A stretch of DNA of 64,000 nt from Sphingomonas radiodurans (GTDB lineage: Bacteria; Pseudomonadota; Alphaproteobacteria; Sphingomonadales; Sphingomonadaceae), in the NCBI RefSeq assembly GCF_020866845.1, contig NZ_CP086594.1, positions 2,294,001 to 2,358,000 of the forward strand. The letters are read 5' to 3'. Positions 43,289 through 46,250 of this stretch are shown here, piece after piece (position 1 is the stretch's first letter; every line of letters starts with the position of its first letter). A program made the translations under genes and the position numbers. The notes under the pieces were generated by a model that searched no databases, had not been told where the DNA came from, and was given only the letters and a program-made list of their open reading frames with translations.

Positions 43289-43897
43289 CTAGAATTGCAG
43301 AACCGTCTGCGCGACCGGTGCGAAACTGCGACGGTGGAGCGGGCAGGGGCCATGTTCGGCCAAAGCGCGGCGATGCGCGGGCGCGCCATAGCCCTTGTTC
43401 GACGCCCAATCGTACTGCGGATATGATTCGTGGTGCTGGAGCATGATCGTGTCGCGGGTGTGCTTCGCGACGATCGAGGCGGCGGCGATCGAGCGGCTGA
43501 GCGCGTCGCCGCCGACGATCGGGGTGGACGCATAGCCCCAGCGCGGCAGGCGATTGCCATCGACCAAGACGTGACCGGGCGCGCAGCCGAGTTTGGTTGC
43601 GATCTGATCGACCGCGATCGTCATCGCCTTCATCGTCGCCCAATAGATGTTGAGCGTGTCGATTTCGTCGGCCTCGACGATCCCGACGCCGACGATCGCG
43701 CAGTCGGTGATCCGTGCGCAGAGGCGGGCGCGCTCGGTGGCGGGGAGCTTCTTCGAATCGTCGATGCCTCTGGGGACGTTTCTCGCCGGCAGGATGACGG
43801 CCGCGGCGACGACAGGGCCGGCGAGCGGGCCGCGGCCGGCCTCGTCCACTCCGGCGACAGGGGCGAGATAGAGGCGTTCGTGTTTCAATCCGGGCAT
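43289..43897 (-). CDS. rnhB: RnhB, ribonuclease HII
   Basis: The protein has 202 residues from ATG 43897 (MPGLKHERLYL); an alternative in-frame ATG at 43909 adds four. The catalytic motif VAGVDEAGRGPLAGPVV gives the first Asp-Glu pair; DDSKKL follows and DGNRLPRWG later, then ALSRSIAAASIVAKHTRD. It removes RNA from RNA-DNA hybrids, including single ribonucleotides. Its start overlaps the thiD 3' end by 13 bp. The order thiD-rnhB-ccrM-folP-NRDE on the minus strand could be one transcription unit with an internal ccrM promoter. Confidence 0.96.
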   Translation of the reverse strand: MPGLKHERLYLAPVAGVDEAGRGPLAGPVVAAAVILPARNVPRGIDDSKKLPATERARLCARITDCAIVGVGIVEADEIDTLNIYWATMKAMTIAVDQIATKLGCAPGHVLVDGNRLPRWGYASTPIVGGDALSRSIAAASIVAKHTRDTIMLQHHESYPQYDWASNKGYGAPAHRRALAEHGPCPLHRRSFAPVAQTVLQF

Positions 43898-45126
43898 GTC
43901 AGCCGCCATGGCGGGAAGCGGCGGTTCTCGCCAGCGGTGTAGAGACGAAGCGCGTTGCCGGCGGGGTCGGAGAGTCGGGCTTCGCGCCAGCCCCAGCTCT
44001 GGTCGATCGGATCGGTGACCGCGATCCCGTGCGCGCGGGCGGCTGTTACGGCGACGTCGAGGTCGGCGACTTCGAGGAAGAGGATCGGTTTTGCATCGAT
44101 CTCGTCGGCGGCCTCGATCGAAAGCGTGGTGCCGCCGGCGCTTTCGAAGCGGGCATAGCGGCCGTCGCTGTCGACGATCGGAGTGAGGCCGAGTTCTTTG
44201 TAGAAGGCGAAGCTTGCGGCGTGGTTGGTGGCGGGGAGGGTGATCTGGTTGGGGGTCGCGCCGCCGACGTCGCTGTCGAGGCGGACCTTTTGGTGGCCCA
44301 TCGGGCCGTGTCCGGCACCGAGACCCGGGGCTTCGCGGAGTGCGATGCGGACGAACCGGCGGGCGCGGGCGGTCGCTTGCGGAAGGGGGAGGCCGCGGCC
44401 GAGGCCTTCGGCGATCGCGCTGGCGAGGGTGCAGCCGGTGCCGTGGGTGTGCGGGGTGTCGATGCGGGGGGCTGTCCAGCTGGTGACCTCACCGCTCTGG
44501 TCGAGCAGGCGGTCAGTAATCTTGTCGCCTTCGGCGTGGCCGCCTTTCACGAGGAGCGCTGCGCCGGTTTCCAGCACCGCGCCCTTGCCGCCAAGTGCGA
44601 CGAGTTCGGGGAGGTTGGGGGTGACCAGCGTCGCCAGGCGCATCAGGCGGTCGAAGGCAGTGATCGTGTCGGCGTCGGCGAGGATCGAACCGGAGGTGGC
44701 GATCATCACTGGGTCGAAGACGATCGGAAGCCCTCTCCCCTTCAGGGGAGAGGGTTGGGAGAGGGGGAGGGCGGCGGACGGGGTGGCTTGGGACTGCCCC
44801 TCTCCCCGGCCCTCTCCCCGCGAGCGGGGAGAGGGAGATAGGGTTTCCAGCACGTCCGCTACCGCATGCGCCGTCGCGGCCGAGCCGATCATGCCGATCT
44901 TGACCGCGTCGACGCCGATGTCGTCGATGCAGGAGCGCATCTGCTGGACGACCATTTCGGTCGGGATCGGGTGGACGCCCTGCACGCCCACTGTGTTCTG
45001 CGCGGTGATGGCCGTCACGGCTGTCATCGCGTGGCCGCCGAGCATCGTGACGGTCTTGATGTCGGCCTGAATGCCGGCGCCGCCGCCGGAATCGGAACCT
45101 GCGATGATTAGGATCCGGGCTGTCAT
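43885..45126 (-). CDS. thiD: ThiD kinase fused to a VOC domain, with repeat-derived insert
   Basis: The protein has 413 residues from ATG 45126. Residues 1-~270 are hydroxymethylpyrimidine/phosphomethylpyrimidine kinase: IAGSDSGGGAGIQADIKT, VKIGMIGSAA, FDPVMIATSGS and HTHGTGCTLASAIAEGLG. It phosphorylates HMP to HMP-PP for thiamine synthesis. Between residues ~95 and ~132 there is a low-complexity insert (SPSPRSRGEGRGEG, later LSQPSPLKGRG) encoded by a palindromic repeat (separate entry), just before the active-site strand. Residues ~285-413 form a glyoxalase/VOC domain (FYKELGLTPIVDSDGRYARF, LSDPAGNALRLYT), an unusual fusion. The kinase motifs themselves are intact. Confidence 0.93.
   Translation of the reverse strand: MTARILIIAGSDSGGGAGIQADIKTVTMLGGHAMTAVTAITAQNTVGVQGVHPIPTEMVVQQMRSCIDDIGVDAVKIGMIGSAATAHAVADVLETLSPSPRSRGEGRGEGQSQATPSAALPLSQPSPLKGRGLPIVFDPVMIATSGSILADADTITAFDRLMRLATLVTPNLPELVALGGKGAVLETGAALLVKGGHAEGDKITDRLLDQSGEVTSWTAPRIDTPHTHGTGCTLASAIAEGLGRGLPLPQATARARRFVRIALREAPGLGAGHGPMGHQKVRLDSDVGGATPNQITLPATNHAASFAFYKELGLTPIVDSDGRYARFESAGGTTLSIEAADEIDAKPILFLEVADLDVAVTAARAHGIAVTDPIDQSWGWREARLSDPAGNALRLYTAGENRRFPPWRLTCPD
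44731..44844. repeat. Palindromic repeat inserted in frame within thiD
   Basis: Two perfect hairpins lie 55 bp apart: CCCTCTCCCC-TTCA-GGGGAGAGGG (44731-44754) and CCCTCTCCCCGC-GA-GCGGGGAGAGGG (44810-44835). The intervening bases are also GC-rich and G/C-asymmetric. The block is ~114 bp (38 codons) with no stop in the thiD frame. A related CCCTCCCCC.../CGGGAGGGG copy lies in an intergenic gap at 45310-45344, which shows this is a dispersed repeat family rather than normal thiD sequence. Confidence 0.85.
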
Positions 45127-45140
45127 CGACGATTGCAAAA

Positions 45141-45201
45141 AACGAATGTTGAGTAAGTTGAGGCTGTGGCGCGTTTTTCTCCAACAGCCTCAACATTCGT
45201 T
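45141..45201. repeat. Long hairpin upstream of thiD
   Basis: The left arm AACGAATGTTGAG, a 9-base insertion and GCTGT pair with the right arm ACAGCCTCAACATTCGTT around a GGCGCGTTTTTCTCC loop, giving a stem of about 18 bp. The left arm carries TAAGTTGAG as an apparent near-duplicate of TGTTGAG. It could terminate transcription or form the 5' leader of thiD. No TPP-riboswitch core was seen. Confidence 0.65.
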
Positions 45202-45309: not shown

Positions 45310-45344
45310 CCCTCCCCCGACCCCTCCCGCAAACGGGAGGGGAG
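45310..45344. repeat. Intergenic copy of the CCCTCCCC palindrome
   Basis: Contains CCCCTCCCG-CAAA-CGGGAGGGG (45321-45342), preceded by CCCTCCCCCGA. It resembles the hairpins inside thiD in base content and layout. It lies just downstream of the DUF1272 gene's stop and could also act as a terminator for that gene, although there is no T-run. Confidence 0.65.
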
Positions 45345-46052: not shown

Positions 46053-46250
46053 CCGTTCGTCCCGAGCGAAGTCGAGGGACAAGCCACGTACGGGTTGCTT
46101 TGGGCATGTGCCTCGACTTTGCTCGGCACGAACGGTTTGTCATCTCCCGGTCGCCCTGAGGAGGTGCTGAGCAGAGCGAAGCGCCGTCTCGAAGGACATG
46201 TGCTTCGGGACGGCATTTCGACAAGCTCAATGCCTCCTCAGCACGAACGG
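46053..46250. repeat. Pair of intergenic REP-like palindromes
   Basis: The first unit, 46053-46135, has arms CCGTTCGTCCCGAGCGAAGT... and ...CTTTGCTCGGCACGAACGG around ~35 bp. The second, 46155-46250, has arms CCTGAGGAGG... and ...CCTCCTCAG with an inner GAAGCGCCGTCTCGAAG/CTTCGGGACGGC pairing. Both end in GCACGAACGG. The sequence style (TTTCGACAAGCTCA, CACGAACGG) is common between genes in sphingomonads and xanthomonads. They separate the thioesterase from the TauE-type gene. Confidence 0.8.

Follow-up and report, generated by a model that had tools for sequence, protein, structure and literature searches.

The thiD locus of Sphingomonas radiodurans

The window analysed here is a stretch of 64,000 nucleotides of the S. 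radiodurans genome, and coordinates given without a locus handle are positions within it. The genome is 3.68 Mb in size, consists of a single contig and contains only one thiD gene. The reading frame of thiD is open throughout, including a GC-rich block that an earlier note, made from the sequence alone, had described as a palindromic repeat inserted in frame. This description was correct, with both perfect hairpins present, and the kinase motifs around the insert are intact as had been claimed; Pfam Phos_pyr_kin matches on both sides of it (E 5e-70). The originally proposed bounds of 44731-44844 are off by a few bases compared to those set against relatives without the insert. A relative of the palindrome, reported near 45310, is indeed found in the intergenic region. 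The features are given below, with residues counted from the ATG at 45126.

43885..45126, minus strand: thiD; its product, 413 aa when counted from the ATG, is a phosphomethylpyrimidine kinase that carries a glyoxalase-like domain at the C-terminus
44728..44838, minus strand: in-frame insert of 37 codons, SPSPRSRGEGRGEGQSQATPSAALPLSQPSPLKGRGL, residues 97-133, missing in most relatives and predicted to be disordered
44731..44754: palindrome 1, CCCTCTCCCC-TTCA-GGGGAGAGGG, perfect 10-bp stem with a 4-nt loop
44733..44831: the two REP units as an outer inverted pair, separated by a 45-nt spacer (REPIN/BIME-like)
44810..44835: palindrome 2, CCCTCTCCCCGC-GA-GCGGGGAGAGGG, perfect 12-bp stem with a 2-nt loop
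45321..45342: related single palindrome, CCCCTCCCG-CAAA-CGGGAGGGG, intergenic, upstream of thiD

Compared to insert-free relatives, the net gain is ~34-35 codons. Matches comparable to the two hairpins occurred on average 0.02 and 0.00 times in shuffled windows. The arms of the outer inverted pair (44733-44759 and 44805-44831) are 74% complementary. The predicted RNA fold of the insert region is very stable (-74.7 kcal/mol), and the region exceeds 200 shuffles in fold stability both as RNA (z -2.9) and as DNA (z -2.8). An AlphaFold2 model based on 50 sequences has a confident kinase core, which agrees with solved structures of ThiD (TM 0.83-0.84, normalised by target length). The modelled insert sits between the helix of residues 83-94 and the strand of residues 135-137, with pLDDT under 50 at residues 101-129. 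Because the insert is of low confidence and the core matches solved ThiD, a tolerated, disordered loop on an intact kinase core appears to be the simplest reading of the model.

Several other features were observed around the gene. The C-terminal glyoxalase/VOC-like domain corresponds to Pfam PF00903 (43945-44250), and the ThiD-VOC fusion is present in many, though not all, relatives in the genus, where matches reach residue 413-417 or end near 283. An inverted repeat with 20-nt arms (AACGAATGTTGAG...CTCAACATTCGTT) lies just upstream of thiD at 45141-45201 and has no Rfam match. Neither a TPP riboswitch nor any other Rfam RNA scored above the cut-off near thiD. Palindrome 1 gave a weak score to whalefall-1 RNA (44731-44772, 21.7 bits with a cut-off of 37), a family that may itself resemble a REP hairpin. 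Two more repeat-like palindromic stretches (CGAGCGAAGTCGAGG.. and ..CTGAGCAGAGCGAAGC..) were seen by eye where the neighbouring thioesterase-like gene begins (46056-46200).

A dispersed repeat family in the genome

The repeat in thiD has at least 39 copies genome-wide: 90 matches collapse to ~39 distinct sites besides thiD, which is a lower bound (40 candidates were scored, and copies were read as stretches around the matches). Among these sites, five are in frame in Pfam-supported genes and two are at gene starts. A genome-wide search for copies within genes, which the earlier note had proposed, uncovered in-frame copies in MurD, DnaE2, RNase R and, near the N-terminus, GspE. The copies by Ddl and RecG adjoin the gene start. 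At the other sites tested, no Pfam-supported gene was found in the frame of the repeat, with Pfam applied to longer ORFs only.

Several properties of REP/BIME (REPIN) elements are displayed by this repeat. It is a short palindrome present in many dispersed copies, mainly extragenic, and its units are paired in inverted orientation with a spacer; the full-length two-unit architecture is seen again at several copies in the same genome. A resident RAYT is lacking, as the Pfam Y1 transposase PF01797 is absent from the genome. This transposase scored above cut-off in 15 of 151 genomes of the genus and is rare also among insert carriers. A resident RAYT was therefore rejected as the mover. RAYT association holds for REPIN/RAYT systems, and orphan REPs are known. 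Neither tag of the GTAG/CGTC superfamily stands beside the stem of the S. radiodurans element; CGTC was seen by eye beside the stem in three types of ThiD insert of relatives (D, E and F, below). The element is inserted in frame in a protein gene without destroying it, as are Rickettsia palindromic elements (RPEs), to which it had been likened. The resemblance holds for the way it works, but the class is that of a sphingomonad REP/BIME-type dispersed palindrome, and nothing found assigns it to the RPEs.

Inserts in ThiD of relatives

The stretch from KIGM to FDPVM comprises 66 residues in S. radiodurans ThiD and mostly 30-36 in relatives. Among the matches listed, at least 36 of the 282 Sphingomonas genomes with a match carry an insert at the same helix-strand loop, and the inserts are roughly 15-45 residues long across the genus. 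The site is not unique to S. radiodurans: several unrelated palindromes occupy it across many species, which makes it a hot spot. An order-wide sample contained one genome outside the genus with a clear gap at the site (G348, ~19 codons), and a class-wide sample contained none. A scan of named genomes added Chakrabartia godavariana and Sphingobium phenoxybenzoativorans as carriers. Conservation of the insert at the protein level across the family had been named as the result that would contradict a repeat insertion; the comparison did not show this, most ThiD proteins of Sphingomonadales being insert-free at that position. A conserved ancestral loop was rejected, as the insert is missing in most relatives. 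We take the empty site as ancestral because, in the genomes compared, it is the common state, in other orders too. Sphingopyxis indica (L101) has an insert that is non-palindromic.

Another loop of ThiD, around alignment position 150, is a weaker insertion site. It holds a different palindrome family (GTTCGCCCTGAGC..GTCGAAGGGC) in L125, L175, L177 and L052, and an A-like palindrome in L134. In Sphingomonas immobilis (L125), both loops are occupied.

Four or more palindrome types, with no detectable DNA similarity between them, occupy the main loop. Type labels were assigned by hand.

Types A and B: CCCCTCCCC/GGGGAGGGG palindromes
Types C and D: CCCGCGAAGGCGGG palindromes
Type E: CACCCCGGCCTTGTGCCGGGG palindrome (L129)
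Type F: GGCCCCGGCCTCCGCCGGGGC palindrome (L127)

The longest perfect short-loop hairpin exceeded that of shuffles in most A inserts and partly in B, but not in C or D, for which the test is a poor summary, their arms being imperfect or far apart. On a tree of 148 kinase domains with the insert left out, presence and absence need 14 changes, of which well-supported branches alone force 9, and all insert types together need 24. Within Sphingomonas, several unrelated palindrome families have repeatedly settled in this ThiD loop. A tree of flanking DNA from a clade of 25 species shows types B and C in a seemingly shuffled distribution among sister species, and an AU test rejected monophyly of the B type there (p=1.4e-7). 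Of six genomes searched, four have both the B and the C repeat family in abundance, and the two genomes without the B repeat both have C in ThiD. This scatter is compatible with short-tract exchange between relatives or with repeated arrival, and the data do not separate the two. Elements can also undergo partial in-frame deletion: in L057 one B hairpin is left after a deletion between repeats, and in L181 the C element is reduced to FSRE. No clean empty site with a target-site duplication was seen among the nearest filled/empty pairs, which are too diverged.

Synonymous-site conservation of the hairpins

In the core of 12 C-type inserts, divergence at fourfold-degenerate sites is 0.00 per pair, whereas amino-acid differences amount to 7.5%. 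By the same measure, the gene upstream of the insert diverges by 0.354 and the insert's own tail by 0.37. Both hairpins of 8 B-type inserts likewise show 0.00 fourfold divergence, although 7 and 19% of their amino acids differ; upstream the value is 0.33. No flank window of the same size fell below 0.048. Each pair provides ~6-10 sites for this test, so that the estimates are coarse. The palindrome is maintained as DNA, because the hairpin cores gather no synonymous changes despite amino-acid changes in the insert. Selection on the protein alone would not give zero fourfold divergence. Possible causes are homogenisation by other copies, hairpin selection and fresh insertion; the diverged tail of the C type argues against its recent insertion.

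Further hot spots in MurD and DnaE2

The in-frame repeat copy in S. radiodurans MurD (L192:1045-2847) also lies at a shared site, and among the matches listed, those of about 57 of 149 Sphingomonas genomes span the insert. The 52 MurD loci that were read comprise at least three palindrome types at the site and 16 empty sites. The MurD protein tree was too poorly resolved, and a DNA tree was therefore used, on which well-supported branches force at least 5-6 changes. Synonymous divergence is 0.043 in one MurD hairpin and 0.144 in the other, compared to 0.32 downstream. DnaE2 inserts at one site are similarly of differing type. By these sequence comparisons, MurD and DnaE2 contain hot spots comparable to that of ThiD. 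In MurD of two species (L328 and L329), the short stretches LFPLPHTGEDL and ILPAHGEDL resemble what a deleted palindromic insert would leave behind.

Discussion

The earlier proposal that ThiD tolerates a repeat-derived in-frame insert is supported. The explanation we prefer, and regard as probable, is that a REPIN/BIME-type element, two inverted REP hairpins with a spacer, landed in frame in a permissive surface loop, that this loop was colonised repeatedly, and that the palindromes were then kept up at the DNA level. The landing loop would be the one that joins the helix to the strand running into the FDPVM active-site segment. Insertions may be widespread, with those in genes surviving only where a tolerant loop receives them in frame and without stop codons, and the hot spot would then reflect tolerance more than targeting. 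Afterwards, the palindrome may be kept as DNA by conversion from other copies or by hairpin selection, and alleles may be swapped among related species via homologous recombination. A benefit to ThiD would not be required. Against this explanation stand the dominance of one loop, which tolerance alone does not obviously explain, the lack of a clean empty site with a target duplication among the nearest pairs, and the absence of the Pfam Y1 transposase (RAYT) family from this genome as a source of mobility.

Targeted insertion, in which an enzyme recognises thiD DNA or structure and places any palindromic element at a landing pad, would account for the same few codons being struck repeatedly in many species and for unrelated elements sharing one site. 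We consider it unlikely, given that hairpin starts differ by up to ~8 codons between insert families, that the MurD and DnaE2 sites lie in other sequence contexts, that the second ThiD loop is used too, and that Y1 transposases are missing from this genome and from most of the genus. It is doubtful that the hairpin is kept for a role in thiD, such as ribosome pausing between the protein halves or control of mRNA stability: most species are insert-free, the elements differ in sequence and size, some have been trimmed to remnants, and the same repeats are high-copy elsewhere. The absence of fourfold divergence in the hairpin cores, the very stable RNA fold and the independent recurrence do agree with such a role. 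C-type alleles align gap-free over 99 nt in 12 species, and each type can thus be old within its clade; a single ancient insertion that later diverged into all present types is nevertheless very improbable, as the types lack DNA similarity, carry different genome-wide repeats and are interspersed with insert-free lineages. A pseudogene, frame error or assembly artefact, in favour of which nothing was found, is scarcely credible for an intact, sole thiD in a single-contig genome, with a branch length (0.18) similar to that of its neighbours and the pattern repeated in many independent assemblies.

In-frame landing of REPIN/BIME-type elements in a tolerant loop has parallels in known systems. 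RPEs insert in frame in Rickettsia protein genes, and in R. japonica and its relatives, orthologues carry RPE groups 4, 6 and 7 at the same loci; the authors discussed both a hot spot and a common origin and favoured the latter (PMC3767692). The Sphingomonas inserts share with RPEs the palindromic repeats of ~100-150 bp lying in frame in housekeeping genes. They differ in belonging to another bacterial order with larger genomes, in deriving from high-copy, mostly intergenic REP/BIME repeats, and in that the several unrelated families, with empty sites in between, point to repeated arrival. Di Nocera et al. (2013) documented REPs inside ORFs of free-living bacteria, including sphingomonads, with DnaE2 as an example in some species, and noted that two Xanthomonas species have REPs at nearly the same position of recB (PMC3733652). 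The main text of that study contains no occurrence of thiD, and ThiD and MurD hot spots are likewise absent there (PMC3733652). GTAG/CGTC REPs differ from the S. radiodurans element in their tag, although CGTC accompanies types D, E and F. The two inverted hairpins with a spacer and the dispersed copies are those of REPINs/BIMEs with RAYTs (PMC3116915, PMC8266576); the differences are the missing RAYT and the position of some inserts inside conserved housekeeping genes. Intragenic REPs and differing repeats at one site consequently have published precedents. Within the open-licence literature, to which the search was confined, four aspects appear to be new, with priority uncertain: the number of lineages, the recurrence of multiple families at one site, the shuffling of alleles and the lack of synonymous divergence.

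Whether a broader statement holds is evenly balanced in our judgement: that ThiD, MurD and DnaE2 hold standing landing sites for unrelated palindromes that are gained, swapped between species and lost, and that repeats resident in the coding frame undergo concerted evolution as DNA with the other repeats of the genome, irrespective of which amino acids they specify. The inserts provide a natural replicate series on the entry of palindromic repeats into proteins, with dozens of species, empty and filled sites, several families and assayable enzymes. Synonymous sites separate DNA-level maintenance from protein-level constraint, and ThiD and MurD supply candidate permissive insertion sites. In these bacteria, short hairpin repeats colonise the same loops of housekeeping proteins again and again.
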